Origin: Spirochaetia bacterium
GTDB taxonomy: Bacteria > Spirochaetota > Spirochaetia > CADAEX01
Direction: 5' to 3'
DNA length: 54,596 nt
Assembly (NCBI GenBank): GCA_017535435.1
Contig: JAFXTY010000044.1
Location: 1 to 54,596 of the forward strand
The notes beneath the pieces are model-generated. The model did not search any database, had not been told where the DNA came from, and saw only the letters and a program-made list of their open reading frames with translations. Numbering within the stretch: the stretch's first letter is position 1; every line of letters starts with the position of its first letter. This document shows positions 25,526 through 42,025 of this stretch, one piece after another. The translations under genes were made by a program, and so were the position numbers.

Positions 25526-28500
25526 ATGAAAAAGTCTGTTTTTGTGGTTTTGATTTTTGCCTGGTGTTCCTGCTTTGCCGCAGGGCAGAATAATGAGCTT
25601 TTCCGACGGGCTATGTCAGAACAGAACGAGAACCGGTGGCACGAGATATCTGACCGGTTTGGGAAAAAGGACTCAGAGGATTGGGACAGGATGTATTCCT
25701 CCTGGCTGTGGAGACAGATAGAAGCCAGGATAGTGTCTCCCGATATCCAGCGGTTCTCCGATCAGCTGTCGGAACAGGCAGTCAGTCTGACCCGCGGGAC
25801 AGCAGGGCAGGATGATATGTCTGGTATCCTTGCCAACTGGAAGGCTTCAGGAGAGTCTTCACTCCAGAATCTTTATCAGAGATGGGAAGAGGCCGCAAGT
25901 GCAGTCTATGCACAGATGGCTGCATCGTTGCCAGATGCTGCCCAGACCCGGGTGGCCGAATTTTTTGCAGATTATAAGAGCAGAGTGCACAAGGAATTGG
26001 AGACTTTGTTTCTGGCAGGGGAGAGGAGATTGTTGGCTTCCCAGCTCCGGGTAGAAAATGCTGGTTCCAATGATGAGAAGACCGGGAAAAAGAAAATGGA
26101 GGATATGTTTGAAGAAATTGCATCTGCGTCAGATACCAGCCTGCAGGAGCTTCAGGAAACATGGGACAGTACATTTGACTCCGGAATGTCTCAATGGAAT
26201 GCATATTCAACCCAGACCCTCGGCTCTAATATTGACTGGAACAGATTGACATCTTCTCAGAGCCTGGAAGAAGAATCGGCTCTGAGCAATGCTATGGCCG
26301 AGTTTGCAGAGAGCAGAAACAGCTGGTTTGCGGAGCTTGATTCTGTTATCCAGACAGGAAAGACAATCCTGGACGGCAGAGCCTCTTCTTTCTTCAATGA
26401 GATGGAAGAGACCTTGGAGCAGACCCGCTTGGCTTTTGACCAGAATGCTCAGCTGCTTCAGACCCGGATGGACGCGGTGTTTGCACAGTTCAATACTGTC
26501 AAAGGAGTAAAAGAGCAGGCAGCATCTAACCGGCAGAGCTGCCTGAATGAGAAAACCCGTCTTGAGAATTATAAGGCAGAGCTTCAGGCCAGTGTCAGCA
26601 GCTGTAATAATTCTATCTCAAACTTAAATAAAAAAATAAAGAGCAATCAGGAAAGTATTGAGTTCTATCAGAAACGTATCAGGACGCTTTATGCCTTTAT
26701 GAGTGAAAGCAATGAATATGATAATGAGTATGAGATCAGCCAGTGCAGCAAGAAGATTGCTGCCTGTCAGGCAGAGATACAGAGCTGGGAGGCAGAGAAA
26801 ATCCGTCTTGCCAATCAGAAGAATGCTTTGAACAGTCTGATCACTCAGCAGAATGAGAAAATAACGGCCTATACTCAGCAGGCAGCTTTCTGGGCTGATG
26901 CTGTTTCCAGATGCAATGCCAGGGAGGCGGAGATACGGCAGAGCATGTCTGGCATAGAGAGCGAGATACGGGGCGCAGGATGGCCCGACAGTGCAGATAT
27001 GCAGCTTTATCAGCTTAAGGCAGAGGTGGATTCTCTTGTCCTTAATGCTGAGATAGCCAGGAAGGTATATGAGTTTGCCCTTGATATCAGCTCTGGAAAT
27101 GCTGTCAGAGAAGAGATATATGATGCATATGGCGAGGCCGAGAAGACAATGGCCGATGCAGATAAGGCCTATAAAGATTCAGTTGCTTCTTTAAAGGAGC
27201 TGGCAGATAAGCTGAATGATGAAAAGAATTTTGATCAGGATACATATCAGAACCTGACCGATGAATACAGCAGAAAATCGGAAGAGAGCAAGGCCCTTTA
27301 TGAGCAGTATGCCGGAGCGGTCATGAACTTCAAGCTTCAGGATAGAAAGAGGGAATACATACTTTCTCCGGACAGCACTCCAGAGGATGCTCTTAAATCC
27401 TTGAATGAAGCAGAAAAAGCTTTGGCAGAGGCAACAGAAAAATATGATAAAGCTGTTCTGCTGGCACAGCAGAATGCTGTATCTCCGGATGGAGGCCAGG
27501 ACGCAGATTTAGTTCAGTCTGTTCTCTATCTCAACAAGGCTGCAGAGACTGCGGAAGCAAAGGCCGAGGATCTGTATGCCCAGTCTGCCATGGCTGGACA
27601 GAATGCAGAACGTAGACTTGCAGACCAGCTGTTCAAGGATGGGGGGAGCATAGCTTTTGAATTTGTTCAAAAAATGAACAATTCTCTGCTTCGGGAATTC
27701 TCCCTGGCTTATTACTGGCGGAGCCTGCACAATTCCGGGTTCAAGAACATAGATGTGGCAATATACAGCGACCAGAACTTCCAGAAGCTTAAAAGCTACG
27801 GTTATGCATTCAGTCATCCGGAGGATTACACATCAGCCCAGGCCCAGGCTGCTTACAATGAAATAGCAGGTGATCCTGAGAAATTAAGGCTATATACCTA
27901 TTTCGAAGACTCGATAAACAACGGCAGTGCTCAGTTTGATATCGCTTTTATAGGAAAGGATGTGAGCGATGTTGCCCACGATTACCTGTGGGATGTGTCA
28001 AAGGAGAAAGAAGAGAATTACGAGAAGAATCACGCTATTTATAATTTATTCACCCGTAAATCCAAGAAAATGAAAAGCATGCGCAAGGCTATGGCTGATA
28101 TAGATGGAAATAAGGAGCGTTCTGATATTATGGAGGCTGTCAGCTATATCAAGGGCGAACTGGAGTCAAAGGACAAATATGAGGCTCTTGCGGCTATGAC
28201 CTTGGACGAGGAGACAAGTTACAGCTTTGATGAGTTTATTTCAAAGTGCAGGGAATGTACGGGGCTGGCTTTAGCCGATGAGACTGTGCTGGAAAAATAT
28301 TTCAATCAGCTGGACTCGGCCGAGAGGAAAGGTTTTTTATCCCTCCTTTCAAATCTTTCATCCCTGATTATGAATGAGAATATCTGCATAAGCTTGGGGC
28401 AGCTGGATGGACTTGATGATTATTGCAGCTCCTCAAATCGTCTTATGATAATGAAGCTGACTGGAATTGAGCTTATGAGCAGCTACCAGGAGATGGCAGA

Positions 28501-31315
28501 GTATTCTGTTGGAAAAATGGCGGACAATCTGAAAATGACATATAAAGAGTTGTCAGATGATGCTGCCTCCTGGGATGTTATGACCGAGAACCTTCTGGCC
28601 CTTGCTGCAGATAAATGGGAAGGTATGCTTGAGAAAATCAGGACCGGGATGAAGAGCAGGATTCAGCTTGAGACTTTGAAGTCTGCATCTGCAGAGGAAG
28701 GCTTTATAGAGGATGTCCTTAAGCACAGCACTTATCTTGTGGCACTTCAGATGTCGACAGCTGTAGATGATCTGGAGAATCAGATGCTATCTCATATCGA
28801 GAAGGCAAACCAGACTGCAGATAAAAGGATAACAGATCTGCTGGAGGGGAAAGGGTATGTCAGACATGGTGCCAAATTTAAGCGCAAGGTGATAATCGGC
28901 GAAAGCCTTCTGGGGGGTATCGAGCATGAGAATCAAAGTATAGAGGGGTACCGGTGGTTCAGCGCTCCAGTCTTCAATTTAGGAGTTGATCTCTCCCCCT
29001 CTTGCATAGAAGGACTTGATCTGGTGCAGCTTGCGGCTCTGATTGAGAAGGCTGAGACTGCCATAGACAGGTATAGGATGGTGGTGTTCGGAAAGAGCGA
29101 CAGCCAGGAGGCTGCATCTTGGAGCGGCTTTGATCAGGATATGCTTGCATATATGAGACAGGCGGAGGAAGGGTTCCGTGGATCTGCCCAGTATTCAGAT
29201 TACTCTGGTGTAAAGGGCCTTTTTGCTATGCACATAGGTTATGTACCTGTCATGTCCAGTTCAGATCCGGAGAAAGTTGTGAAGAAAGGATATGGTGAAT
29301 ATGGACGTATCTTTGAGCTTTTCTATAAGAACGAAGGAAGGCTGGGCAGAGGGCTGGCAGCCATTGATGTTCCGTTCTATATGCAGACACTGTGGGATGA
29401 GGACAGCGACAATGACGGCAAGAGCGACAATATGCTTTTTGCTGTTCCGACTATCAGGCAGGGCGGTCAGATTGTCTGCAATATATTCAGCTCTATAAAT
29501 CCGGCACTGGGTATGATGGTGACAGCTTTTGACAGCACCACATTTGAAGGCTTGGATATGATTTTTGCAGGGAAAAGCCTGGAGGATGCAGTCAAGGATG
29601 TGAACAAAAGGATGGCACTGGCCGCCTCCAGCTGGGGAACCAGCTCTCTGGCCCATGCGGCCCAGCCGGCACAGTCTGCCGCCACCGGCACCAGGCTGAT
29701 CCAGGCTGCCGCAGTTTCTGCAGGAAAGGGATATGCGGACCAGGTTGCGGCTTCTGCTGTTGATGGCAGCTCCTTTGACAAAGCTCTGGAACCCGGTGCG
29801 AAAAAGACTTTGGGCAGCCTGGTGCGGAACTGGATAAGCGGCAGACTGTCGGGCTTCCTGGGGGAAGACCAGCTTGCAGCCCAGCAGGTTGCAAGCTTTG
29901 CCGGCGTCCTGACCGATGCCGGGTATGATCTTGCCACCACAGGAAAGGCTAAATTCAATGTGCTTAAGATCAACGACCATATTGGAATCCTTGAGATGAA
30001 TATAGGTGGAGATGACCCTATTTTCGAGATAGGATCAGGAGGTTATGACATAAGTAAAAAAACTGTTGAGTCTGCCATCGCATCATCCTATATTCTGAAG
30101 GAGGACAACAGAATAAGACACGGCTCCGATTTCTCCAGAGATAACAAGATAACAATGCGGGCTCTTTTCTCCGAGGGTAAAATCCAGGATCAGATAGGAC
30201 ACTTGTATAACCTGCTCCTTGATGATGGAGCGGCTGTGGAATATGGAGAGCTTGGGGATGCCTTTGCATACACCTCAACAGATGATCATGGTATAAAAAA
30301 TATCGTCCTTAACCTCATCCCATCCGGCTCAGTATCAGACCAGCTTAAAGCTGCTGTTGTCCTTGCTCACGAGGCATTCCGCAATGGAAAGGATGACGGC
30401 ATTCTCCAGATTCTGGAGACAGCAGATGCAGTCATAGGGCATGCGAAGATGGCTTACGATATTGTCTCTTCCGGCTTCAAGTATCCTGATATCACTCTTA
30501 TCAAAAACGAAGTGGAATCATTGATAGGGGGCAACATAACAGACCTGCTTGTGAATGCATTGGTCAACTACGCTTCCAGCGGTGATTTCTGGCGGATTAT
30601 AGGAGATGACAAGGTGGTATGGGACGGCCATCTGAATCTATATCAGGAGGATGGGGATCTTCTTTACAACTATCAGAAATTGAGAGAGACATTGCAGGCT
30701 GGTTTGGCGTCTGTTGTTGAAGTCCCTCAGGAAAGGCTTTCTGAGATTGTATGGAAAAACTCTCTTCTTGAAATGATAGGAGTAAAAGCAGATGGCACCT
30801 ATACTTCAAAGGCGGCAGAGGCTCTCCTTTCTGATGGTTATATGAGCTATGACGAGGCAGTTGATTCCCTTTGCGGCACTGCAGGCAAAACCTTTGCAGT
30901 TCCAGATATATTCCAGCATTACAGCGCCCGGATTGTGGCCAATGATACAGCTCTGCTTGAGAAGTATTTTGCCGACTCTGATATGCTTAAGAAGTGGAGC
31001 AACCAGAATGAGCCTGTGCAGTATCTGAATGGGGCAAGGGCAACTCTGCTCCCCGACAGCAAGTCAATCTTCCACATGGCTCCGGAAGACAAAGCTACCT
31101 ACAAATGGGTTTTTGATGATGGCAGGGAACTGGTGATCGGCGAAAGGCAGGATGGTACAAGATATGTGCAGACCGACGACCGTTACATTGGAACCTACAA
31201 CCTGGCAAACCCAGACAACCCTGTGGAGCACGCAGTCAAGGATGTTTTCCCCTATGCTGTTTTCGGCAACACTCCGGATGACCGCTCTCTTGCGAATTTC
31301 CTTATTTCTATGTAA
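25526..31315 (+). CDS. Giant exported protein (1929 aa), coiled-coil N-half, unknown function
   Basis: GGAGG precedes the ATG. A signal peptide (about residues 1-20, ending near CFAAG) sends the protein out of the cytoplasm. Residues about 60-330 are polar and helical. About 340-500 form a strong coiled coil rich in Q, E, K and N. About 520-720 continue as charged helices with Ala-rich YEKA-type repeats. An acidic DEDSDNDGKSD loop at 1291-1301 looks like a calcium site. A small-residue-rich, mildly hydrophobic zone follows (about 1310-1450). The C-terminal third is globular and includes VLAHEAFRNGKDDG and DKVVWDGHLN, but no catalytic set that I recognise. The size and style recall the very long Leptospira protein family TIGR04388, which I cannot verify. 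pyrK starts 20 bp downstream. Confidence 0.7.
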   Translation: MKKSVFVVLIFAWCSCFAAGQNNELFRRAMSEQNENRWHEISDRFGKKDSEDWDRMYSSWLWRQIEARIVSPDIQRFSDQLSEQAVSLTRGTAGQDDMSGILANWKASGESSLQNLYQRWEEAASAVYAQMAASLPDAAQTRVAEFFADYKSRVHKELETLFLAGERRLLASQLRVENAGSNDEKTGKKKMEDMFEEIASASDTSLQELQETWDSTFDSGMSQWNAYSTQTLGSNIDWNRLTSSQSLEEESALSNAMAEFAESRNSWFAELDSVIQTGKTILDGRASSFFNEMEETLEQTRLAFDQNAQLLQTRMDAVFAQFNTVKGVKEQAASNRQSCLNEKTRLENYKAELQASVSSCNNSISNLNKKIKSNQESIEFYQKRIRTLYAFMSESNEYDNEYEISQCSKKIAACQAEIQSWEAEKIRLANQKNALNSLITQQNEKITAYTQQAAFWADAVSRCNAREAEIRQSMSGIESEIRGAGWPDSADMQLYQLKAEVDSLVLNAEIARKVYEFALDISSGNAVREEIYDAYGEAEKTMADADKAYKDSVASLKELADKLNDEKNFDQDTYQNLTDEYSRKSEESKALYEQYAGAVMNFKLQDRKREYILSPDSTPEDALKSLNEAEKALAEATEKYDKAVLLAQQNAVSPDGGQDADLVQSVLYLNKAAETAEAKAEDLYAQSAMAGQNAERRLADQLFKDGGSIAFEFVQKMNNSLLREFSLAYYWRSLHNSGFKNIDVAIYSDQNFQKLKSYGYAFSHPEDYTSAQAQAAYNEIAGDPEKLRLYTYFEDSINNGSAQFDIAFIGKDVSDVAHDYLWDVSKEKEENYEKNHAIYNLFTRKSKKMKSMRKAMADIDGNKERSDIMEAVSYIKGELESKDKYEALAAMTLDEETSYSFDEFISKCRECTGLALADETVLEKYFNQLDSAERKGFLSLLSNLSSLIMNENICISLGQLDGLDDYCSSSNRLMIMKLTGIELMSSYQEMAEYSVGKMADNLKMTYKELSDDAASWDVMTENLLALAADKWEGMLEKIRTGMKSRIQLETLKSASAEEGFIEDVLKHSTYLVALQMSTAVDDLENQMLSHIEKANQTADKRITDLLEGKGYVRHGAKFKRKVIIGESLLGGIEHENQSIEGYRWFSAPVFNLGVDLSPSCIEGLDLVQLAALIEKAETAIDRYRMVVFGKSDSQEAASWSGFDQDMLAYMRQAEEGFRGSAQYSDYSGVKGLFAMHIGYVPVMSSSDPEKVVKKGYGEYGRIFELFYKNEGRLGRGLAAIDVPFYMQTLWDEDSDNDGKSDNMLFAVPTIRQGGQIVCNIFSSINPALGMMVTAFDSTTFEGLDMIFAGKSLEDAVKDVNKRMALAASSWGTSSLAHAAQPAQSAATGTRLIQAAAVSAGKGYADQVAASAVDGSSFDKALEPGAKKTLGSLVRNWISGRLSGFLGEDQLAAQQVASFAGVLTDAGYDLATTGKAKFNVLKINDHIGILEMNIGGDDPIFEIGSGGYDISKKTVESAIASSYILKEDNRIRHGSDFSRDNKITMRALFSEGKIQDQIGHLYNLLLDDGAAVEYGELGDAFAYTSTDDHGIKNIVLNLIPSGSVSDQLKAAVVLAHEAFRNGKDDGILQILETADAVIGHAKMAYDIVSSGFKYPDITLIKNEVESLIGGNITDLLVNALVNYASSGDFWRIIGDDKVVWDGHLNLYQEDGDLLYNYQKLRETLQAGLASVVEVPQERLSEIVWKNSLLEMIGVKADGTYTSKAAEALLSDGYMSYDEAVDSLCGTAGKTFAVPDIFQHYSARIVANDTALLEKYFADSDMLKKWSNQNEPVQYLNGARATLLPDSKSIFHMAPEDKATYKWVFDDGRELVIGERQDGTRYVQTDDRYIGTYNLANPDNPVEHAVKDVFPYAVFGNTPDDRSLANFLISM

Positions 31316-32091: not shown

Positions 32092-33008
32092 GTCTTTCCA
32101 CAAAAGTAGGCAGCTTTGAGCTTGCCAATCCTTTTATTGCAGCCAGCGGCACCTACGGTTACGGCACCGAGTATGGCGACCTTTCTCCTGCAAGGGAGTG
32201 GGGTGCAGTCATCCTCAAGTCTGTATCCAGGAACCCCCGGCCAGGCAATTTGCCGCCCCGGTGCTGCGAAGTTGACAGCGGCATGATCAACTCCATCGGC
32301 CTTGCCAATGTGGGGCTTGAGAAATATATGGCTGAAAAGCTCCCGGCCTTTGCCGCTGCAAACCCAGATGCAGTCTGCATAGCCAGCCTGGCAGGGGAGA
32401 CTCTGGATGAGTTCCTCTGCTTGGCTGAAAAGCTTACAGAAGTCAAAACCATAAAAGCTTTCGAGCTCAACATCTCCTGCCCAAATGTGGCCAAAGGTGG
32501 AATGCACTTTGGCGCAGACTGCAGTGCATCCCGGCAGCTGGTGACAGAGATGAAGAAGATAAGCAGTGTGCCGGTGTGGGTAAAGGTTACCCCATCCACC
32601 ACCGACCCTGTGGGGGTGGCCTCTGTCTGTGCCGAAGCAGGGGCTGATGCAGTGGTTGCCACCAACACAATTCCTGCCATGAAAATCGATATCACAAGGT
32701 GCCGCCCGGTGCTGGGCAACAAAACCGGCGGCCTGTCTGGCCCTGCCATGTTCCCCGCATCACTGCGCATAGCATACATGATCCACCGGGCTCTGCCCGA
32801 TCTTCCCCTTGTAGGCTGCGGCGGTGTGGACTGCGGGGAAAAGGCAGTCCAGTACATCCTTGCAGGATGCAGTGCCGTCGAGATCGGCACTGCCACATTC
32901 CGCCGGCCCGACACCCTGGCAGAAGTTAAGCAGTTCCTTTCTGAATATATGGATAGGATGGGCTTCAAGACTATCGAGGACTTCAGGGGGCTGGCTTCCC
33001 GCACTTAA
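32088..33008 (+). CDS. pyrD: Dihydroorotate dehydrogenase, class 1B catalytic subunit
   Basis: PyrD oxidises dihydroorotate to orotate in pyrimidine synthesis and, with PyrK, forms the NAD-dependent class 1B enzyme. The 306-residue TIM barrel shows ANPFIAASGTYGYG, LKSVSRNPRPGN, the catalytic-cysteine motif FELNISCPNVAKGGM typical of class 1 enzymes, VWVKVTPSTTD, and a flavin phosphate loop GCGGVDCGEKAVQYILAGCSAVEIGTA. ATG at 32088 is the real start; the frame extends upstream only because it lies in pyrK. The next gene has its own 63-bp intergenic region. Confidence 0.94.
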   Translation: MSLSTKVGSFELANPFIAASGTYGYGTEYGDLSPAREWGAVILKSVSRNPRPGNLPPRCCEVDSGMINSIGLANVGLEKYMAEKLPAFAAANPDAVCIASLAGETLDEFLCLAEKLTEVKTIKAFELNISCPNVAKGGMHFGADCSASRQLVTEMKKISSVPVWVKVTPSTTDPVGVASVCAEAGADAVVATNTIPAMKIDITRCRPVLGNKTGGLSGPAMFPASLRIAYMIHRALPDLPLVGCGGVDCGEKAVQYILAGCSAVEIGTATFRRPDTLAEVKQFLSEYMDRMGFKTIEDFRGLASRT

Positions 33009-33071
33009 GGCTTTTGCTTTTTGCTTGCGCCGTAATCATTTTTACTGTATCATTACAACTGGAGGCAATCT

Positions 33072-33803
33072 GTGGATAAACTTATAACTCTTCTTAAAGA
33101 ATCAAAGCACTGCGTTGTGTTCACCGGCGCCGGAGTCTCTACCCTGGCTGGAATCAAGGATTTCAGGGGCAAGGACGGTCTGTATAAGACAGCTGGCGAG
33201 GATGCAGAGAAAATTTTCGATATCGACTATTTCCACAAGAAGCCTTCTTTCTACTACAAGGCTGCCAAGGATTTCATATACAACCTGGACCAGAAGGAGC
33301 CTGCCATTGTCCACACCGAGCTGGCAAGGCTTGAGAAGATGGGGATTGTGAAAGCAGTCATCACCCAGAATATAGACCTGCTGCACCAGAAGGCCGGTTC
33401 CAAGAAAGTGATAGAAGTCCATGGATCTCCGGAGATCCATCGCTGCCTTGCCTGTGGGAAGATTTATAAGTTTGACGAGATTGCCAAGATTGTCCAGGAT
33501 GGCAAGGTGCCTCAGTGCAGCTGCGGAGGTATAATCAAGCCGGATATCACATTCTTCGGGGAATCCTTGCCGGCACTGGCGGTGGAGGAGGCGATATCAG
33601 AGGCATCCAAGGCCGACCTCATGCTGATTCTGGGCTCCACCCTGGTGGTTTATCCGGCAGCCTCATTCCCTCTGTACACTGCACGGAATGGCGGAAAGCT
33701 GGTGATTGTGAACAACATGGAGACACCGCTGGATTACATGGCGGCTGCCAAGTATGACGACCTGGAGAAGGTCTTCACCTATATTTCTGAACATCTGAAG
33801 TGA
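33072..33803 (+). CDS. cobB: Sirtuin NAD-dependent protein deacylase
   Basis: This 243-residue SIR2 enzyme removes acyl groups from lysines, consuming NAD+ and releasing O-acyl-ADP-ribose and nicotinamide. Motifs are complete: FTGAGVSTLAGIKDFRG, TQNIDLLHQKAG, the catalytic histidine in VHGSP, zinc ligands CLACG and CSCGG, then KPDITFFGE, LGSTLVVYPAASFP and VNNMETPLD. GTG at 33072 has GGAGG 6 nt upstream. The SIR2-like gene begins one base after the stop, so the pair is an operon. Confidence 0.94.
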   Translation: MDKLITLLKESKHCVVFTGAGVSTLAGIKDFRGKDGLYKTAGEDAEKIFDIDYFHKKPSFYYKAAKDFIYNLDQKEPAIVHTELARLEKMGIVKAVITQNIDLLHQKAGSKKVIEVHGSPEIHRCLACGKIYKFDEIAKIVQDGKVPQCSCGGIIKPDITFFGESLPALAVEEAISEASKADLMLILGSTLVVYPAASFPLYTARNGGKLVIVNNMETPLDYMAAAKYDDLEKVFTYISEHLK

Positions 33804-33804
33804 T

Positions 33805-34767
33805 ATGGATACATATAAGCGCATCTATGTACTAGGTTCCGGTTTCTCAAAATCCATCTCGAAGGATATGCCTGCAATGAGCGGTCTTTCCCAGGAGCTC
33901 AGGATGGCAGAAGATGACAAATACCCTGAGCTTATGGAATTCATGAGAACCCTGAATGAAAAGACCAACGGCAGCAGAGAGTTTACCTCCCTTGAGGCAG
34001 TATGCTCCCTGATTCTGGGGCGTGATATATTCTACAACAGCTCTGTCTACCTTCATTACCAGATTCTCCAGAATCAGCTGGTGCACTGGCTTTATGAAAA
34101 GATAGACAAGGCGGCCAAGGCAGTGGATCCTGAGAAGGAGGAGGGGCTCAAGCGGTTCATCCTGCAGTGTGTGCAGCCCAAGGATGGCAAGAAGTCTCTG
34201 GTCATAACTTTCAACTACGACCTTCTGATTGAACGGCTCTTTGCCAGCGTTAAGGATTTTCCATGCAGGCTGGATTATATTGTCAGGCTCAACAGCTATT
34301 TTGACGAGAGGAGACCCTCGGCAAGCAAGCATATTTTCCCGTATCTCAAGCTGCATGGCTCCTTCAACTGGTTCCGATCGCCGGGCAGCATTATCTGCGA
34401 CACCAACAATGTGTATCTCCTGGACGAGGATGGATACAGCCGCAACCTGGTGCACCATAATGATATTCCTGTATTTGTCCCTATGACATTCTCAAAGCAG
34501 AGCTATCTGGGTGGAAGCTTCTTCAATGTGCTTTGGAACATTGCCCAGCGTTATCTGGAGATGGCAGAGGAGATTACTTTCATAGGATATGGATTCCCTC
34601 TTACTGATCTTATAAATTTGGCTTTCTTCTTGAACTATAAGGATAAGATAAAGCATGTGGTGATAATGGGAGAGGAAGAGCGCAAAAAAGCCCGCCTCGA
34701 GGCTCTCTTCGGAAAAGAGAGAATTATAGACCAGGATGCAGTGGACTATCTTTCCCAGATTTCCTGA
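33805..34767 (+). CDS. SIR2-like domain protein (zinc-less), possible NADase
   Basis: This 320-residue protein keeps the SIR2 Rossmann core but not the zinc ribbon: VLGSGFSKSISKDMP at the start, ITFNYDLLIERL in place of TQNID, YLKLHGSFNWF carrying the histidine and the H-G-S-x-N-W signature, and FIGYGFPLTDLINL near the end. This is the SIR2-like type found in ThsA and other phage-defence NAD+-cleaving enzymes, and also in uncharacterised chromosomal proteins. It lies one base after a true sirtuin, with no recognisable partner defence gene, so defence is only one possibility. The 3' end overlaps the Nudix-SGNH gene tail-to-tail by 22 bp. Confidence 0.75.
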   Translation: MDTYKRIYVLGSGFSKSISKDMPAMSGLSQELRMAEDDKYPELMEFMRTLNEKTNGSREFTSLEAVCSLILGRDIFYNSSVYLHYQILQNQLVHWLYEKIDKAAKAVDPEKEEGLKRFILQCVQPKDGKKSLVITFNYDLLIERLFASVKDFPCRLDYIVRLNSYFDERRPSASKHIFPYLKLHGSFNWFRSPGSIICDTNNVYLLDEDGYSRNLVHHNDIPVFVPMTFSKQSYLGGSFFNVLWNIAQRYLEMAEEITFIGYGFPLTDLINLAFFLNYKDKIKHVVIMGEEERKKARLEALFGKERIIDQDAVDYLSQIS

Positions 34768-35825
34768 TTTATAAAATCACCCATATAAATTGCAAGATTC
34801 TTATTTGATGCGGCGTTGAAGTGGATGCCGTCCGTGCCGTCGCATGTGGCATATTTGCCAGCTTCTATAAAGGTGCATCCTTTTTTCTCGGCCACCTCTT
34901 TTATGGCTCCTGCCAGCCGCTGAGATTTATTCACCTGGCTCTCAAAGAATGATGCAAAAAGATTGTCCTCGTCACACTTGGTGGAGATAGGAACTGCAGA
35001 GGCCAGAAACACCCGGGCATCAGGATTTGTCGCCCACACGATGTCGGCCATATCCCCCATCCCTTCAGCTATCCTGTTTATGGAGATATCTGGTACTGCC
35101 ATTATATCGTTGTTACCTAGAAGTATTATTACTCCATCAAATTTTTCCTGTCCTACAGCTCTTTCCAAGGATTGCTTCCCGTTGGTGGGACTTCTCATGG
35201 GGAGGTAGTTCATCACAGTGCGGCCGTTCACACCGTTCTCGGTTATATCGAAGCAATCTGGAATATATTTTTTTACCACACAGGGCCATCGGGTCTCCTC
35301 ATCCAGTCTGCTGCCGTCATGCCAGTCATAGCCCCAGGTGCTGGAACTGCCGAAGCAGAGTATTTTTTTCTTCTTATCAAAGATCTGAAGCCGGCTCTCC
35401 CTCATATTATCGCCGTCAAAGGTGAAGTAGCCCGAGAAACATTTGCCGTCCAGGAGAGCGGGAATCCAAAGCTTGTCATCCTCCCACATCTGGGCGTAAG
35501 GCATTTTATTAACCGGGCACCAGAAAGGGTCAGCCTCATCGCAGGACTTCAGCTCACCGAAGAATTCATCTGCATAGAATACATAGCCTTTGAGGTCAAG
35601 GCCATCGGTGAATGGAAAGTCCAACACACCTTTCAAGACAGGATTCACCGGAATGATGCCGGTTTCCTCCATGCACTCCCGCACTGCAGCCTGAACCGGT
35701 GTCTCTCCCGGCTCAATATGACCCCCCGGAGCATTCACCTTGCCGGCGCCATGCCCAGTCTTCTTGTGGATAAGCAGGATTTCATCTCCCGACCGTATAT
35801 ATGTGATGACAGCCCGTTCTTCCAT
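34746..35825 (-). CDS. Nudix hydrolase fused to SGNH/GDSL-type hydrolase
   Basis: This 359-residue protein has two enzyme domains. Residues about 1-135 are a Nudix domain with a perfect box from G35 (GHIEPGE) to R49-E50-CMEE-T-G56-I57, so it should hydrolyse a nucleoside diphosphate-X. Residues about 153-359 are an SGNH esterase of the arylesterase type: FGSSSTWGYD (block I, usually GDS; the aspartate is serine), NGVNGRT (block II), LLGNND (block III) and DGIHFN with the catalytic Asp/His (block V). The fusion is unusual. The ATG lies 6 nt after a perfect TATAAT, without a ribosome site. Substrates are unknown. Confidence 0.85.
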   Translation of the reverse strand: MEERAVITYIRSGDEILLIHKKTGHGAGKVNAPGGHIEPGETPVQAAVRECMEETGIIPVNPVLKGVLDFPFTDGLDLKGYVFYADEFFGELKSCDEADPFWCPVNKMPYAQMWEDDKLWIPALLDGKCFSGYFTFDGDNMRESRLQIFDKKKKILCFGSSSTWGYDWHDGSRLDEETRWPCVVKKYIPDCFDITENGVNGRTVMNYLPMRSPTNGKQSLERAVGQEKFDGVIILLGNNDIMAVPDISINRIAEGMGDMADIVWATNPDARVFLASAVPISTKCDEDNLFASFFESQVNKSQRLAGAIKEVAEKKGCTFIEAGKYATCDGTDGIHFNAASNKNLAIYMGDFINQEIWER

Positions 35826-35831
35826 ATGGAT

Positions 35832-35837
35832 ATTATA
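35832..35837 (-). promoter_or_regulatory. -10 element of a leaderless promoter for the Nudix-SGNH gene
   Basis: A perfect TATAAT on the minus strand ends 6 nt before the ATG. The -35 region is AT-rich without a clear match. Confidence 0.45.
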
Positions 35838-35877
35838 TAAGAATAATAATTTATTTAAAAGTTACTTAATAAAAACA

Positions 35878-36204
35878 TCAATTATGTCTTTTTATTACAT
35901 TGATTATATCTAAAATGAAATCTAACTGATTATCACTTGAGGTATTAATTATTCTTTTTAAGTTTTCTTTCTTTTCTGAAGGGATTTGACTTTCTTCTAT
36001 TCCAAAATCATTAAAAGAAAGATGTAATATGGATATAAGCTTAAAAAAGTTATCTAAAGAGGGATAATTTTTCCCTGTTTCAATTTTGCTTAGGTGTTTT
36101 TCGCTGATTCCAACTAGTTCTGCCAGTTGGGCTTGTTTAAGGCCATTTTCTTTTCTTGCATTTTTGAGGATTTGTCCAATGTATTTTTTATCAACTTCCA
36201 CCAT
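35878..36204 (-). CDS. XRE-family helix-turn-helix regulator
   Basis: This 108-residue protein has an N-terminal HTH_3 domain: IGQILKNARKENGLKQAQLAELVGISEKHLSKIETGKNYPSLDNFFKLISIL, about residues 9-60, with the classic Q-x3-A recognition region and an IETGK turn. The short C-terminal part is helical. It is divergent from the peptide/radical SAM genes across a 191-bp AT-rich region containing an inverted repeat, so it is the likely regulator of that cassette. Base composition is clearly AT-richer than in the neighbouring Nudix gene, as in the rest of the cassette. No ribosome site precedes the ATG. Confidence 0.85.
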   Translation of the reverse strand: MVEVDKKYIGQILKNARKENGLKQAQLAELVGISEKHLSKIETGKNYPSLDNFFKLISILHLSFNDFGIEESQIPSEKKENLKRIINTSSDNQLDFILDIINVIKRHN

Positions 36205-36297
36205 ATAAATATATTTATTACTTTTTTATAAAATAAATTATAAATAACTATTAATAAACAACATATCTATTGACTATTTATAAAATAATCATATGTA

Positions 36298-36330
36298 TTG
36301 ACTTTCCGAGGTAGGGCGGTTAGTATATAA
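36298..36330 (+). promoter_or_regulatory. Predicted promoter of the RiPP cassette
   Basis: TTGACT at 36298-36303 is followed by TAGTAT (36321-36326, 17-bp spacer), or by TATATA at 36324-36329. The octamer TATTGACT occurs here and again 28 bp upstream (36268-36275), a direct repeat that may be a second -35 or a regulator site. Confidence 0.4.
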
Positions 36331-36337
36331 AGTAATC

Positions 36338-36374
36338 ATCTATATAACTTATTTTATAGATGGGTTATATAGAT
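36338..36374. promoter_or_regulatory. 11-bp inverted repeat, likely operator or leader hairpin
   Basis: ATCTATATAAC (36338-36348) and GTTATATAGAT (36364-36374) are perfect reverse complements with a 15-bp spacer. They lie between the predicted promoter and the ribosome site (36384-36390) of the small peptide gene. The position suits an operator for the divergent XRE protein, or a hairpin in the leader. Confidence 0.5.
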
Positions 36375-36395
36375 AACTTTTTAAAGGAGAAAACT

Positions 36396-36497
36396 ATGCT
36401 CGGTATTTTAATGGTTGTACAGCATTCTGTTGTCGGAATGGCTGGTTGCGGCAGGTCTTTTGATATTGACTGTGGAATTAGTTCAAGAATGGGTTGA
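36396..36497 (+). CDS. Putative RiPP precursor peptide (33 aa)
   Basis: A 33-codon gene with the best ribosome site of the region (AAGGAGA, 5 nt before ATG). The N-terminal 17 residues (MLGILMVVQHSVVGMAG) would be the leader and CGRSFDIDCGISSRMG the core, with two cysteines (18 and 26), one aromatic residue and several small and charged residues. Its position immediately upstream of a kinase-fold gene and a PqqD-like/radical SAM/SPASM gene is what marks it as a precursor. Possible products are a thioether (sactipeptide or ranthipeptide type) from the cysteines, or a ring involving F22. I do not recognise the family. The alternative is a frameshifted N-terminus of the next gene, whose frame reads through this region without an ATG. 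Confidence 0.55.
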   Translation: MLGILMVVQHSVVGMAGCGRSFDIDCGISSRMG

Positions 36498-36498
36498 G

Positions 36499-37413
36499 GT
36501 GTTTGAATTTTTAAAATTTGACAGTTTCAAGGTGTTTAATGATCATGCCTTGGGGAAAATCTTTTTCCCCAAGGGCTTGAATTATTATGAAAATTTATCC
36601 ACATATGTTTCGATTAAGCATGGTCGTTCCTGTGCAATAAAAGTTAGTGATTTTGAATGGATATTAGTTAAAGGTGGCGGCTGGAACTATGGTGGTTGCT
36701 TAGTTTATCGTTCAACAAAAGATAAAGAGTTGATTTTTGGTCTTTTTGGGAAGACTGATGCAATTCGGGAATATGAAGTAAGCAAAAAAATTGAGGAAAT
36801 AGCAAATGAATTCCCTCAAGTACTATATTATAAAATATTTTCAGATTATAAACTTCCCTCCCAGTATGATTTTCTAAAAACAATCAAATATAATGATTTA
36901 AAGCCGGTAGAACCGTGTTTGCTCTACACAAAGGTTAAATCACCATTTAGAATAGCAGATTTGCAATTCTATTCTGACTCTATAAAAAATGAAATAATCA
37001 GAATAAGTTGTGAATATTGGAATATAGGTATAAATGATTATTTAGAATATTTCTGTAAAAAACTTGCAAATCATGTTTCATTAATGCATAAAAATGGTTT
37101 TATAAATGATTCCTTAGAATATTCAAATATTACAATGCTTGCTGAAATTGTAGATTATGAATGGATAACTGCGCCAAATATTCCACTTCCTGATGGAAAT
37201 AGTGGGAATGTGTTTACATATGAAAGGAAGGAAAAAGAAATACTTTATGCAGTTGAAGCTATCCTTTTTCTTTCAGCTTTAATCCATATTAAATATGATT
37301 TTTTTGATATTTATGAAACTTTTATTTCTGAATACAAAAAAACGAATTCAGATTATGTAGATTTAAACATAAATATTTGGAAAATTCTCAAAAGGGAAAG
37401 GTTTATTTTCTAA
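36499..37413 (+). CDS. Kinase-fold protein resembling SelO-type protein AMPylase, RiPP-associated
   Basis: I do not recognise a named family. From GTG at 36499 (2 nt after the peptide stop) it has 304 residues; GTG at 36472 is an alternative. The order of motifs follows the SelO pseudokinase fold: KGGGW at 58-62 (glycine loop, like KGSG), AIREYE at 88-93 (like SIREF, with the helix-C glutamate), a long middle, H197-x-NGF, then DSLEYSN210 and IVDYEW at 217-222, matching the GVMNTDN and TIDYG catalytic motifs of SelO. SelO transfers AMP to proteins; here a tailoring or activating step on the peptide is conceivable. The end overlaps the radical SAM start by one base (TAATG). Codon use is AT-rich. 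Confidence 0.5.
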   Translation: MFEFLKFDSFKVFNDHALGKIFFPKGLNYYENLSTYVSIKHGRSCAIKVSDFEWILVKGGGWNYGGCLVYRSTKDKELIFGLFGKTDAIREYEVSKKIEEIANEFPQVLYYKIFSDYKLPSQYDFLKTIKYNDLKPVEPCLLYTKVKSPFRIADLQFYSDSIKNEIIRISCEYWNIGINDYLEYFCKKLANHVSLMHKNGFINDSLEYSNITMLAEIVDYEWITAPNIPLPDGNSGNVFTYERKEKEILYAVEAILFLSALIHIKYDFFDIYETFISEYKKTNSDYVDLNINIWKILKRERFIF

Positions 37414-38798
37414 TGAAGAAGAATTTTTATATTCCTGATTGGCTTGCTTTTAGAACATACTTTTTTGGCACAGATAAAAGCAGAACCGTTATTTCAAATG
37501 AATATAAACACGAGTATGTTTTGCTTGAAGCATTATCATCAGATTTTTGGTTTGTGCTTGTTAATTCAAATACTTTTGAAGAAATAAACGATTGGGCGAT
37601 TGAACATAAAATTGATAATCAAGTTGAAGCTTTTATTGATGTCCTTAAAAAGCAAGGATTACTTTTATCTGAGGCTGAAAGCAGAGACTTTATCCCCGGT
37701 GAACAGAACAAGCAAGATAATGATGAAGCAGCAACCATACAATTTGAAACTGATTTGAAGAAATGGTGCTTTGACAATGGGTTATTATTTTCTTTATTTA
37801 TAGAACTAACTTATTCATGTAATTTAGATTGCGTTCATTGTTTTAATCCTAAGGATAATAATCATCAAATTGGATTTAAAGAAATAAAAAAAATAATTGA
37901 TGATGCCTACGAAATAGGATGTTTCAAGTTGACTATATCAGGAGGGGAAGCAACCCTGCATAAGGATTTTATTAATATTGTCAGATATGCCAGAAACAAA
38001 AGAATGTCGGTAGAGTTTTTTTCAAATGGTCAATTATTATATGATGACTCGTATCTTTTTGATGAAATAAAAAAGCTTTATCCTTATCGAGTTGGATTGA
38101 GTATATATAGCATGGACTCACAAGAGCATGACAATGTAACAAATGTTAAAGGATCATGGAATAAAATTGTCAGTATCGCAAAAAGATTAAGAGAAAATAA
38201 TATTAATGTTCAGATTAAGAATTTTCTTCTTGCCCAAAACTATAGAAGTTGTATTTCGGTAAAAGAATTTGCAAAGACAATAAAGGCCAACTATGTTGCC
38301 GACTTATCGCTGATTCCAACAATAGAAGGCGATAAAAAAACTTTAAACTTTGAAATAGGAGAAGAAGGACTTTTTTATTTATATTCAAACCCAGAGTCAC
38401 CTTTATTTGTCAAGGATATAAAATTAAAAGATTTTTCAAAATTGCTTAACACATATTTATGTTATGGAGGATTCAGTAGTTTATCAATTTCTCCGGTGTT
38501 AGATGTATTCCCCTGTTGTTCTATGCCATATAAAATAGCAAATTTAAGAGATAAATCTTTAATTGAAATATGGAATAATTCTTTGAAAGCAAAAAAAGAT
38601 TCAAAACTCTATCAGTTGCAGAATACAAAAGTGAAAGATTTAAAAGAGTGCTATAAAGAAGATTATTGTAAATTCTGCAATTATTGTCCTGGAATGGGAA
38701 TGCTCGAAAATGGTTTTCTGAGAAAATCAGATGTTTTATGCAGACAAGCAAAAGTTAAGATGGAGGCTTATAAAAGAATAATATCTTCGATAAAATAG
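37413..38798 (+). CDS. Radical SAM/SPASM peptide maturase with N-terminal PqqD-like domain
   Basis: This 461-residue protein has three parts. Residues about 20-88 look like a PqqD/RRE peptide-binding domain (SNEYKHEYVLLEALSSDFW through VEAFIDVLKKQGLL). Residues about 125-330 are the radical SAM barrel, with C136xxxC140xxC143 for the SAM-binding [4Fe-4S] cluster and SGGEA at 176-180. Residues about 345-450 are a SPASM domain with C350, C368, C369, C413, C419, C422, C425 and C443 for auxiliary clusters. This layout is typical of enzymes that build thioether or carbon-carbon crosslinks in ribosomal peptides. ATG at 37413 overlaps the previous stop. No transporter or protease gene is in the cassette. 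Confidence 0.88.
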   Translation: MKKNFYIPDWLAFRTYFFGTDKSRTVISNEYKHEYVLLEALSSDFWFVLVNSNTFEEINDWAIEHKIDNQVEAFIDVLKKQGLLLSEAESRDFIPGEQNKQDNDEAATIQFETDLKKWCFDNGLLFSLFIELTYSCNLDCVHCFNPKDNNHQIGFKEIKKIIDDAYEIGCFKLTISGGEATLHKDFINIVRYARNKRMSVEFFSNGQLLYDDSYLFDEIKKLYPYRVGLSIYSMDSQEHDNVTNVKGSWNKIVSIAKRLRENNINVQIKNFLLAQNYRSCISVKEFAKTIKANYVADLSLIPTIEGDKKTLNFEIGEEGLFYLYSNPESPLFVKDIKLKDFSKLLNTYLCYGGFSSLSISPVLDVFPCCSMPYKIANLRDKSLIEIWNNSLKAKKDSKLYQLQNTKVKDLKECYKEDYCKFCNYCPGMGMLENGFLRKSDVLCRQAKVKMEAYKRIISSIK

Positions 38799-38828
38799 TT
38801 TACAGATATGATATAAATGTATCTTGTC

Positions 38829-38857
38829 TTGCAAAAGCACTATCTTTTTTATAAAAT
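38829..38857 (+). promoter_or_regulatory. Predicted leaderless promoter of ychF
   Basis: TTGCAA (38829-38834), 17 bp, TAAAAT (38852-38857), then 6 nt to the ATG at 38864. No ribosome site is present. Confidence 0.5.
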
Positions 38858-38863
38858 AAAAAT

Positions 38864-39970
38864 ATGGGACTTAATTGCGGTATAGTAGGACTTCCTAACG
38901 TAGGAAAATCAACAATATTTTCGGCGGTGACCTCGGCTCCGGCAGAGGCTGCCAATTATCCATTCTGCACAATTGAACCGAATGTGGGCATCGTGAGTCT
39001 GCCTGACAAACGGCTGGACAACCTTTCGGCTCTCTTCCATCCTAAGAAGACTGTTCCTGCGATCGTGGAATTTGTAGATATTGCAGGCCTTGTGGGTGGC
39101 GCATCCAAAGGGGAGGGCCTTGGCAACAAGTTCCTGTCCCATATACGGCAGGTGGGTGTCATTGCCCATGTAGTGCGCTGCTTTGACGACAAAGATATAA
39201 TCCATGTGAGCAACAAGGTGGATCCTGCTTCCGATATCGAGACCATCAATATTGAGCTGGCTCTCTCCGACCTGGAGACAGTGGAGAAGCGGAAGGTGAA
39301 GACCGAGAAGCTGCTGCATGCAGGAAAGGATGCTGCCAAGGCTGCCCAGGCTGAGCTTGAGGTGCTGGAGATGCTTGGAAAAGCACTGGGTGACGGTAAA
39401 CCAGCCCGGTCCATAGAATTCACCGACGACCAGCTGGCAATTGTGAAAGATCTGCAGCTCATCACCATGAAGAAACAGCTTTATGTCTGCAATGTGGACG
39501 AGGCCTCTGCAAAAGATGGCAACCAGTATTCCAAAGTGGTTGAGGAGATTGCCGCCAAGGAAGGCTCTGCCGCCATTGTTGTATGCGGAAAGCTGGAGGC
39601 CGAGATTGCAATGCTGGAGACCCAGGAGGAGCGCAAGGAGTTCCTGGAGATGGCCGGCCTTGAGGAATCTGGCTTAGTACGGCTTATCCATGCGGCATAT
39701 AACCTTCTGGGACTGCGCACTTTCTTCACCGCCGGAGAGGATGAGTGCCGTGCCTGGACATTCCACGAGGGGGACAAGGCACCCCAGGCCGCAGGTGTAA
39801 TCCACACAGACTTTGAGAAGGGATTCATCAAGGCCGAGGTCTACAGCTATGACGACATCATGGAGCTGAAGACCGAGCAGCAGATAAAGCTGGCAGGCAA
39901 GCTCCGCATCGAAGGAAAGGACTATGTGGTCCAGGACGGAGATGTGATGCACTTCCGCTTCAACGTGTAA
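38864..39970 (+). CDS. ychF: Redox-regulated ATPase YchF (Obg/OLA1 family)
   Basis: YchF is a conserved P-loop NTPase that prefers ATP and associates with ribosomes. The 368-residue protein starts GIVGLPNVGKSTIFSAVT (P-loop with the YchF-specific NVGKST), continues with EFVDIAGLVGGASKGEGLGNKFL (G3 and switch region), and replaces the GTP-specifying NKxD motif with NVDE (YVCNVDEASA), which explains ATP use. A coiled helical hairpin follows (about 125-190). The C-terminal TGS domain ends VVQDGDVMHFRFNV. It opens the GC-richer housekeeping stretch after the AT-rich cassette. The opposing thioesterase stops 3 bp away. Confidence 0.95.
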   Translation: MGLNCGIVGLPNVGKSTIFSAVTSAPAEAANYPFCTIEPNVGIVSLPDKRLDNLSALFHPKKTVPAIVEFVDIAGLVGGASKGEGLGNKFLSHIRQVGVIAHVVRCFDDKDIIHVSNKVDPASDIETINIELALSDLETVEKRKVKTEKLLHAGKDAAKAAQAELEVLEMLGKALGDGKPARSIEFTDDQLAIVKDLQLITMKKQLYVCNVDEASAKDGNQYSKVVEEIAAKEGSAAIVVCGKLEAEIAMLETQEERKEFLEMAGLEESGLVRLIHAAYNLLGLRTFFTAGEDECRAWTFHEGDKAPQAAGVIHTDFEKGFIKAEVYSYDDIMELKTEQQIKLAGKLRIEGKDYVVQDGDVMHFRFNV

Positions 39971-39973
39971 GTT

Positions 39974-40372
39974 TTATTTTCTATACACAGTACCATGCAG
40001 CAGCGCAATCAGTGTACCATCCTCGGTGGTGACAGGCACGTTATAGCGGGCTAATGTCCGGCCGCAGGAGACCTCTTTTGCCACTGCAAAAACTTTGCCG
40101 GTGGAGACTCCCTTTATAAAGGACATGGAGGTCTCTATGGATACCGACACTTTTTCTCTGGAGTTGGCGGCTGATGCCAGGGCATAGTCGGCTAAAGTGA
40201 AGAGCACGCCACCCTGTATTATTCCCGCTCCGTTCAGATGCTGGGGCTGGATCTCCACCGATGTCTTTGCATACCCTGGCCCTATCTCGTCCAGTGTAAT
40301 GCCGCACAGATCCACGAACTTGTCAGCTTTCATCAGGTCAATCACTTTCTGGGGAACGTTGTCGTTTTTCAT
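39974..40372 (-). CDS. PaaI-type hotdog-fold acyl-CoA thioesterase
   Basis: This 132-residue hotdog protein contains LNGAGIIQGGVLFTLADYALASAAN. The usual HGG of the family is QGG here, and the aspartate of LADYA is the likely catalytic acid. SVSIETSMSFIKGVSTGKVFAVAKEVSCGRTLARYNVPVTTEDGTLIALLHGTVYRK follows, the strand pattern of PaaI/YdiI enzymes. It would release CoA from aromatic or medium acyl-CoA. GAGG precedes the ATG on the minus strand. It is divergent from lysS. Confidence 0.82.
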   Translation of the reverse strand: MKNDNVPQKVIDLMKADKFVDLCGITLDEIGPGYAKTSVEIQPQHLNGAGIIQGGVLFTLADYALASAANSREKVSVSIETSMSFIKGVSTGKVFAVAKEVSCGRTLARYNVPVTTEDGTLIALLHGTVYRK

Positions 40373-40386
40373 ATATACCTCGCTAA

Positions 40387-40416
40387 TTGAATAATTATCA
40401 CTTTTTTATATATACT
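40387..40416 (+). promoter_or_regulatory. Predicted leaderless promoter of lysS
   Basis: TTGAAT (40387-40392), 18 bp, TATACT (40411-40416), then 7 nt to the ATG at 40424, with no ribosome site. Confidence 0.5.
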
Positions 40417-40423
40417 GTCCACT

Positions 40424-42025
40424 ATGGAAAAAGAGAATATACAGTCTGTCCACTGGGCAGATATCACTGCAGACAAGATTATCAGAGAAAGAAAGCAGTT
40501 CTTGAACGACAAGAAGACTAAATATGTGTGTGCCTCCGGCATCACTCCCTCAGGCACTGTCCATATCGGCAACTTCCGGGAGATCATCTCGGTGGAGCTG
40601 GTGGTCCGGGCACTGCGCCAGAAGGGGGCCGATGTCCGTTTCATCTATTCCTGGGACGACTATGATGTGTTCCGCAAGGTGCCTAAAAACATGCCTAACC
40701 AGGAGGAGCTTGCAAAATATCTCCGTTTCCCTATCACTATGGTTCCAGACCCATGGGGAAAAGAGACCAGCTATGCCCGGGCCCACGAGGTTGAGCTTGA
40801 GAGCCTTCTGCCCCAGGTAGGCGTATACCCTGAGTATCTGTACCAGGCCTCCAACTATCAGGCATCAAGGTATGCAGAGGGTATGCGGAAAGCCCTGGAG
40901 AACAAAGCTGTGATCAAGGCTATTCTTGATGAGTTCCGCACCACACCTCTTCCTGAGGACTGGATGCCTATTTCCATGTTCTGCGGCAAGTGCCACAAGG
41001 ACACCACCACAGTCTTAAGCTGGGACGGCGAGTGGGGTGTTACATACAAATGCGATTCCTGCGGATGCGAAGAGACAGTGGACCTGCGCACCACCTCCAT
41101 TGCAAAGCTGCCATGGCGTATCGACTGGCCTATGCGGTGGGGTGTAGAAGGTGTAGACTTCGAGCCTGCCGGAAAAGACCACCACTCAGAGGGAGGTTCC
41201 TTCAGCACAGCAAAGGGAATAGCCCGGAAAGTATACAACCACGAGCCACCTGTAACCTTCCAGTATGACTTCCTGAGCATAAAGGGGCGTGGCGGAAAGA
41301 TATCATCCTCCAGCGGCGAGGTCATAAGCCTTCGGGATGTTCTGGAGATTTACCAACCTGAGATTGTCCGCTACATGTTTGCCAGCACACGGCCCAACAC
41401 AGAGTTCGCCATCTCCTTTGACCTGGATGTCCTCAAGATTTATGAGGATTACGACAAGTGCGAGCGCATCTACTTCGGCGTGGAGAAGGTGAACGACAAG
41501 AAGGCAGAGAAGGAGAAGCGCATCTACGAGCTTTCTCAGGTGGGCGATGTTCCTTCTGTGATGCCATATCAGATTCCGCTCCGACATCTGTGCAACCTGC
41601 TGCAGATTCACGACGGTAATATAGACGAGGTGCTCAAGCTTTGCGACATCAAGGATGAGAGCCAGGTGCCACGGCTCCGGAACCGTGCAGAGTGCGCATG
41701 GCGATGGATCACCACCTTTGCCCCCGAGGACTTCCGGTTTGCCCTTAAGAAGCCAGGTGAGGATATGTATTTTCCTCAGGATGACAGGGAGATTGCAGTT
41801 CTTCAGCAGTCAGCTTCTGTTGTTGAGAACCTGGAACAGTATGATGAGAAGTCTCTGGCCGAGGCTCTGTATGCAGTAGCTGAGAAAGCGGGCATGGACT
41901 CCAAGGATATGTTCAAAGTGTTCTACAACGTACTTATAGGCAAAGAGAAAGGGCCCCGCCTTGCAGGCTTCATCAAGACCTGTGGAAAGGATAAGGTGCT
42001 GCCTCTTCTTAAGTGGTATAAATAA
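40424..42025 (+). CDS. lysS: Class I lysyl-tRNA synthetase
   Basis: This 533-residue enzyme charges tRNA-Lys but belongs to class I, the form found in archaea, spirochaetes and some alphaproteobacteria, and not to the usual class II. The signatures are PSGTVHIGNFREI (HIGH) near 40-50 and GGKISSSSGEVISL (the KMSKS equivalent) near 290. A cysteine cluster CGKCHKDTTT..YKCDSCGCEE near 186-216 probably binds zinc. The C-terminal helical anticodon-binding domain is complete. It converges on the histidine kinase gene with a 3-bp gap. Confidence 0.95.
   Translation: MEKENIQSVHWADITADKIIRERKQFLNDKKTKYVCASGITPSGTVHIGNFREIISVELVVRALRQKGADVRFIYSWDDYDVFRKVPKNMPNQEELAKYLRFPITMVPDPWGKETSYARAHEVELESLLPQVGVYPEYLYQASNYQASRYAEGMRKALENKAVIKAILDEFRTTPLPEDWMPISMFCGKCHKDTTTVLSWDGEWGVTYKCDSCGCEETVDLRTTSIAKLPWRIDWPMRWGVEGVDFEPAGKDHHSEGGSFSTAKGIARKVYNHEPPVTFQYDFLSIKGRGGKISSSSGEVISLRDVLEIYQPEIVRYMFASTRPNTEFAISFDLDVLKIYEDYDKCERIYFGVEKVNDKKAEKEKRIYELSQVGDVPSVMPYQIPLRHLCNLLQIHDGNIDEVLKLCDIKDESQVPRLRNRAECAWRWITTFAPEDFRFALKKPGEDMYFPQDDREIAVLQQSASVVENLEQYDEKSLAEALYAVAEKAGMDSKDMFKVFYNVLIGKEKGPRLAGFIKTCGKDKVLPLLKWYK

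Follow-up and report, generated by a model that had tools for sequence, protein, structure and literature searches.

A probably horizontally acquired cassette in a Spirochaetia bacterium: a candidate operon for an undescribed family of two-cysteine RiPPs, with a SelO-like kinase-fold protein

We describe here a 3,006-bp cassette in a 54,596-nucleotide stretch of DNA from a Spirochaetia bacterium (lineage CADAEX01; assembly GCA_017535435.1, contig JAFXTY010000044.1, positions 1 to 54,596), referred to below as the window. With a probability of roughly 0.8, the cassette is a horizontally acquired operon for a ribosomally synthesized and post-translationally modified peptide (RiPP) of an undescribed two-cysteine family, whose product would carry a thioether ring and would be tailored by a SelO-like protein. 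A precursor frame conserved in other genomes is tightly linked to a radical S-adenosylmethionine (SAM)/SPASM maturase, to a regulator and, in a subset of loci, to a kinase-fold protein. The original prediction for this DNA, made from the sequence alone, had named an XRE regulator, a 33-residue cysteine peptide, a kinase-fold protein and a radical SAM/SPASM maturase, and all four genes are present. The features are as follows (L and G numbers denote loci and genomes used for comparison):

35838 to 38843, no strand assigned: whole inserted cassette, 3,006 bp, 28.8% GC, delimited by the empty site in sister genomes and by GC content
35878 to 36204, minus strand: XRE/Cro-CI regulator, divergent, 108 residues (Pfam HTH_3, 4.9e-15)
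36226 to 36243, no strand assigned: palindromic operator-like site TTATAA-AATAAA-TTATAA (L020 counterpart TTGTAG-AATAAA-CTACAA)
36338 to 36374, no strand assigned: 11-bp perfect inverted repeat ATCTATATAAC/GTTATATAGAT, arms 15 nt apart, just ahead of the peptide
36386 to 36389, plus strand: ribosome-binding site GGAG for the peptide, six bases ahead of its ATG, with comparable sites in homologues
36396 to 36497, plus strand: precursor peptide, 33 residues, MLGILMVVQHSVVGMAGCGRSFDIDCGISSRMG, leader about residues 1-17 and core from C18; homologous peptides in L002-L007 and L020
36499 to 37413, plus strand: SelO-like kinase-fold protein, 304 residues from GTG 36499, assigned by hhalign, with a weak Bud32 match; homologues behind the peptide in L004, L007 and L062
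36548 to 36574, plus strand: 12-bp RNA hairpin CCTTGGGGAAAA/TTTTCCCCAAGG, early in the kinase-fold frame, between precursor and maturase (-21.1 kcal/mol, z -3.1)
37413 to 38798, plus strand: radical SAM/SPASM maturase, 461 residues, with a putative N-terminal domain (about residues 20-90) resembling a RiPP recognition element (RRE), from Pfam, homologues and PqqD matches in the family

The block at 35838-38843 is a discrete insertion, because the flanking DNA is joined in five congeneric genomes (G001-G004 and G006). All five align over the junction, lack the block, and carry flanks ~79-92% identical to those of the window with few bases between them; a sixth, more diverged congener (G005) likewise lacks the cassette. 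The insert lies between a NUDIX-type gene and ychF, and its GC content of 28.8% compares with 48.3% across the window, in agreement with the AT-rich block between housekeeping genes that had been predicted. A binning artefact is ruled out, as the insert lies inside the contig and both flanks resemble the sister genomes. The insert shows no sign of a target duplication, a transposase or an integrase, and no Rfam element was found within positions 33000-42000.

Within the insert, the divergent XRE regulator is followed by the peptide, the kinase-fold gene and the maturase, the latter three nearly touching. One base separates the peptide stop from the kinase-fold start, and the maturase ATG overlaps the kinase-fold TAA by one base at 37413; on account of this gap and this overlap, translation of the three genes is probably coupled. 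The strong ribosome site (GGAG, 36386-36389) and the position of the peptide directly ahead of two overlapping genes had both been anticipated, as had the spacing of seven residues between C18 and C26.

All seven close homologues of the maturase (52-55% identity), which belong without exception to Gastranaerophilales, carry a peptide frame of 32-36 residues with a ribosome site ~0.1-1 kb upstream of the maturase gene. Six of them were found in the genome collection and align over almost their whole length at 53-55% identity; the seventh (G201/L020) turned up when 383 genomes of the order were scanned. Examples of the peptides are MLKISLVVKHSVVQMGACAKTKANSGCPDVLVKMH in L020 and MLKISRIARHTVVHMGTCPEYSEIMCGILYRCC in L007, and L006 has two precursors in tandem. 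A profile of eight homologue peptides, with the window copy left out, was run on every stop-to-stop segment of the window (1,471 in all) and retrieved the window peptide at an expect value (E) of 2.5e-8, the runner-up segment reaching 0.65. Since a profile drawn from the peptides of other genomes alone recovers it, the small frame goes beyond chance, and by these comparisons it is a real, conserved precursor gene. In line with this notion, synonymous change (dS) exceeds nonsynonymous change (dN) in the closer peptide pairs (dN 0.05 and dS 0.35 for L004/L007; 0.23 and 1.32 for L002/L003; 0.25 and 2.14 for L002/L020). Homologous loci lacking a small gene, or a small frame lacking conservation at codon level, had been named beforehand as evidence against the original prediction; instead, the frame is found at 7/7 loci, with a synonymous bias. 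The small upstream gene with a common core that it had proposed to look for was found in part: the gene is there in every homologue, but the two cysteines (C18 and C26 in the window) are the only invariant core residues of the family.

The maturase matches the Pfam families Radical_SAM (2.6e-17) and SPASM (7.3e-8). Its CX3CX2C motif (C136/C140/C143) is invariant, as are seven cysteines of the SPASM region (C350, C368, C413, C419, C422, C425 and C443). For every family among the NCBIfam matches listed, the maturase falls below the curated cut-off, and its scores are spread over many families (69.9 against a cut-off of 850 for the AlbA family, 1.3e-19; 53 against 300 for the SkfB family); that no curated family is matched accords with the undescribed RiPP-type cassette of the original prediction. 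The closest relative of solved structure by sequence is SkfB (E 6e-15). Regarding the N-terminal ~90 residues, PqqD is the commonest Pfam match of these domains in the maturase family (6 of 29 members, best 8.8e-5), so a PqqD-like RRE is weakly supported; TbiB1 came up at E 0.59. Viperin matches in a defence library were dismissed as generic radical SAM similarity.

The most likely start of the kinase-fold gene is GTG 36499, one base past the peptide stop, since it agrees with the MFDFLK start of the homologues (residue numbers given here count from codon 36493). No Pfam family is convincingly matched by the protein; Bud32 is matched weakly (5e-6 for the L004 copy), over the catalytic loop that the SelO comparison also covers. 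When a profile of four homologues was compared with nine SelO proteins by hhalign, the whole core was aligned with a score of 40.4 (pairwise E 1.3e-4), the best of 200 column-shuffled profiles scoring 23.4 and the reversed profile 13.8. In this alignment K60, R92/E93, R153, N212 and D221 correspond to K107, R129/E130, R177, N247 and D256 of E. coli SelO, and the ATP/Mg residues (K107, E130, N247 and D256 in SelO) are colinear and invariant in all four kinase-fold sequences, down to 27% identity. By profile comparison, then, the protein is a remote relative of SelO, and the kinase fold of the original prediction can be specified as SelO-like. A match to the sigma-1 receptor (profile residues 10-83, E 0.001) was judged to be due to chance, as it covers the would-be N-lobe only and SelO explains the whole core. 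Elsewhere, a long divergent SelO family protein adjoins a SagB/ThcOx family dehydrogenase on a Polaromonas plasmid (L074:2842-6404), which places one more SelO relative next to an oxidase family of the peptide type.

Homologues of the kinase-fold protein were found in four genomes only (the window, L004, L007 and G407), and each of the four copies sits directly behind a two-cysteine peptide. G407 (L062:1-1114) belongs to the phylum of the window but to a different family; its contig begins inside the leader, the core MSSCPKGSEGQCGINYRQP fits the peptide profile (E 3.6e-6), and no maturase was found elsewhere in this genome, which is 85% complete. Because the kinase-fold gene is lacking at L002, L003, L005, L006 and L020, where peptide and maturase are both present, the protein appears from its distribution to be an optional tailoring factor. 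Viral collections yielded no close homologue of the maturase or of the kinase-fold protein, and no close homologue of the latter was found in phage and plasmid records.

The regulator also belongs, by its conservation, to the cassette. It occupies the same divergent position in L020 (64% identical) and L002 (50%), and regulator, operator region and maturase are kept together in one or more of the Gastranaerophilales genomes. The intergenic DNA between regulator and peptide is conserved between the window and L020 (local score 110 against 59 for the best of 1,000 shuffles), and both arms of the palindrome are altered in step between the two, as would be expected of an operator. The inverted repeat at 36338-36374 occurs in the window only and was equalled in 30 of 2000 shuffles. 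Directly beyond the peptide, strong terminator-like hairpins stand in L002, L003, L005 and L006, folded in the same manner as the hairpin at 36548-36574; such hairpins fit a design in which more precursor than enzyme would be made. In L002 alone, the stretch from regulator to peptide holds a further frame of 70 residues with a ribosome site (L002:5564-5773); it has no Pfam match.

Phylogenetic analysis of 35 relatives places the window maturase with the seven peptide-sharing Gastranaerophilales sequences (support 96/91), and a search of 393 genomes from the phylum to which the window belongs found no further maturase copy. The GC content of the insert equals that of the Gastranaerophilales loci (26-34%). 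On the basis of the tree placement, the lack of another copy in its own phylum, the matching GC content and the empty sister sites, the simplest reading would be that the cassette passed horizontally between the host lineage and Gastranaerophilales, horizontal acquisition having been suspected from base composition. An identity of ~53% means that the transfer was not recent or not direct.

The order-level search also returned about two dozen paralogous maturases of Gastranaerophilales (30-37% identity), up to four per genome. Like the cassette, their clusters have the maturase adjoining a small cysteine peptide, but the leaders are different and a TupA-like ATP-grasp gene (PF14305, E 1e-24 to 1e-30) replaces the kinase-fold gene. 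At L021-L044 (for example L027:451-4320, L031:7-2282 and L038) the arrangement is a TupA-like ATP-grasp gene (often), a peptide of 48-69 residues and the maturase, the peptides having a leader of the type LSxDEINELFxDIIE and a cysteine-bearing tail. Within the open-access literature, no description was found of these clusters or of the cassette. Conjugative plasmids of E. coli (L063:3584-5212) and Photobacterium (L064:3453-5074) offer two-gene cassettes in which a distant maturase (~28-30% identity) likewise comes right after a two-cysteine peptide, here of 38 residues; unlike the cassette, they have no kinase-fold gene, and their peptide has no detectable homology to the precursor family (E 59). 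These plasmid cassettes adjoin a recombinase. Their peptides are identical (MSYSKPTVLAKSSTYMAQCRPNSKPSGRPCNPPGPSGR) while 100 of 117 DNA bases are, leaving only synonymous change, and their radical SAM/SPASM enzymes are 77% identical, which looks like another unannotated RiPP.

The cassette shares with the sactipeptide (SkfB, AlbA) and ranthipeptide (PapB, CteB) systems a short cysteine-bearing precursor adjoining a radical SAM/SPASM maturase. It differs from them in its scores far under the curated cut-offs, in a precursor of 33 residues and in having no linked transporter or protease. In sactipeptides, a thioether joins the cysteine sulfur to an alpha-carbon. Thioether chemistry is favoured here as plausible, since no core residue other than the two cysteines is invariant and since, among solved structures, SkfB is nearest to the maturase by sequence. 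The core sequences lend no support to a PapB-type ranthipeptide, because the Cys-X3-Asp/Glu motif of PapB (PMC9413430) is absent: the window has C18-X4-D23, and in L002, L003 and L020 none of the residues that separate the cysteines is acidic.

In the model that we propose, the XRE protein would repress its own promoter and that of the peptide through the conserved palindrome. The N-terminal RRE-like domain of the maturase would bind the leader (MLxIxxxxxHxVV), and the enzyme would cleave SAM and take a hydrogen from a core residue; C18 and/or C26 would then be joined to that residue as a thioether, yielding a small ring. The SelO-like protein would modify or activate the peptide with ATP-Mg: it would transfer a nucleotidyl or phosphoryl group to a hydroxyl (that of S21, for example), or might act at the C-terminus, as MchC/MceJ do on siderophore microcins. 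Unlinked host functions would remove the leader and export the product, or the product may remain intracellular. The fullest form of this proposal, a RiPP family of gut bacteria from two phyla in which a ring on two cysteines is followed by SelO-like adenylylation, phosphorylation or C-terminus activation, giving a ring-plus-nucleotide or ring-plus-phosphate product, is tentative and stands somewhat short of even odds.

Several observations weigh against this reading. As no core position besides the cysteines is invariant, the thioether acceptor is not predictable. The insert contains no transporter or protease gene, as the original prediction had remarked. The PqqD-like N-terminal domain that it had proposed has PqqD matches in some members of the family but none in the window copy, and the structure model of the maturase, from seven sequences, is too poor (predicted local distance difference test, pLDDT, 47; low confidence) for that domain to be assigned. 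The kinase-fold protein does not match PF02696, the SelO Pfam family, at E up to 10, and its prediction from three sequences is of low confidence and too poor to use (pLDDT 41). R170, invariant in the SelO alignment used, is T, Q, Q and Y in the four kinase-fold sequences; with this residue not conserved and the SelO Pfam family unmatched, the reaction may differ from that of SelO.

Among the alternatives, a non-thioether radical change (epimerisation, decarboxylation or other), with the cysteines ending as a disulfide or metal ligands, survives best and is nonetheless rather doubtful: radical SAM/SPASM enzymes have a wide range of reactions and the NCBIfam scores are scattered with none above cut-off, but in sactipeptides and ranthipeptides the donors are usually invariant cysteine pairs at close spacing, and the nearest solved relative is SkfB. 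Somewhat less likely again is a kinase-fold protein serving as an immunity or regulatory partner instead of a peptide-modifying enzyme. Its dispensability at five loci would suit such a role; its ATP/Mg residues, however, are retained across divergent sequences, its gene stands between precursor and maturase, probably coupled to both, with every copy following a precursor, and the published peptide-linked SelO relatives are maturation factors. Those relatives, MchC/MceJ, are required for siderophore attachment to the microcins H47 and E492 (PMC3281104). Judged by their description there, they resemble the kinase-fold protein in being remote SelO relatives that are encoded in a cluster for peptide maturation and work with a small peptide, and by this analogy they would be the nearest published precedent found for a SelO-like protein acting on a small peptide. 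Unlike their clusters, the insert has no MceI/MchD-type (HlyC-like) acyltransferase, siderophore gene or exporter, whereas it does have a radical SAM enzyme, none being described for the cluster of MchC in PMC3281104. With the SelO/YdiU protein adenylyltransferase itself, the kinase-fold protein shares the K, E, N and D of the active site, in colinear order, but it has 304 residues as opposed to 478 in E. coli, gives no PF02696 match, and is missing R170 and a C-terminal cysteine.

That the maturase makes a carbon-carbon cyclophane or similar cross-link on Phe-Asp-Ile, as the original prediction had considered beside a thioether, is improbable. F22-D23-I24 does lie between the cysteines of the window core, and SuiB, a carbon-carbon cross-linker, tops a fold search with the poor maturase model (SkfB and CteB also among the matches, TM ~0.3), a search at most consistent with a RiPP maturase. 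Yet F22, D23 and I24 are not conserved, the Phe-Asp-Ile stretch being confined to the window copy, and several homologues have no aromatic residue between their invariant cysteines; of the two chemistries, it is the thioether that stays plausible. Finally, a chance frame, with another substrate for the maturase, would be in keeping with the divergent window leader (MLGILMVVQ as opposed to MLKISRIAR) but is contradicted by the profile match, the frame in all close homologues, the synonymous bias and the ribosome sites, and can practically be dismissed.

Two other observations concern the window outside the insert. A sirtuin-like gene is directly followed by a second gene of SIR2-like appearance (33072-34767; VFTGAGVS / YVLGSGFSKS), and the host backbone encodes a coiled-coil-rich, secreted-looking protein of 1,929 residues (25526-31315). 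The gene content of the host, with a class I lysyl-tRNA synthetase and a genome of 1.7 Mb, would fit a spirochaete.

Taken together, the cassette most likely stands for a RiPP subfamily of a known sort that has not been described before, with an unusual second enzyme, and represents an undescribed precursor-maturase family of little-studied gut bacteria in a minimal layout of two to three genes. Should the SelO-like protein act on the peptide, we would know of no earlier enzyme of its type that partners a radical SAM maturase, and SelO-type chemistry would be linked to small-peptide maturation beyond the siderophore microcins. A unit of regulator, operator, precursor and maturase common to two phyla suggests, in addition, a product useful enough to travel.

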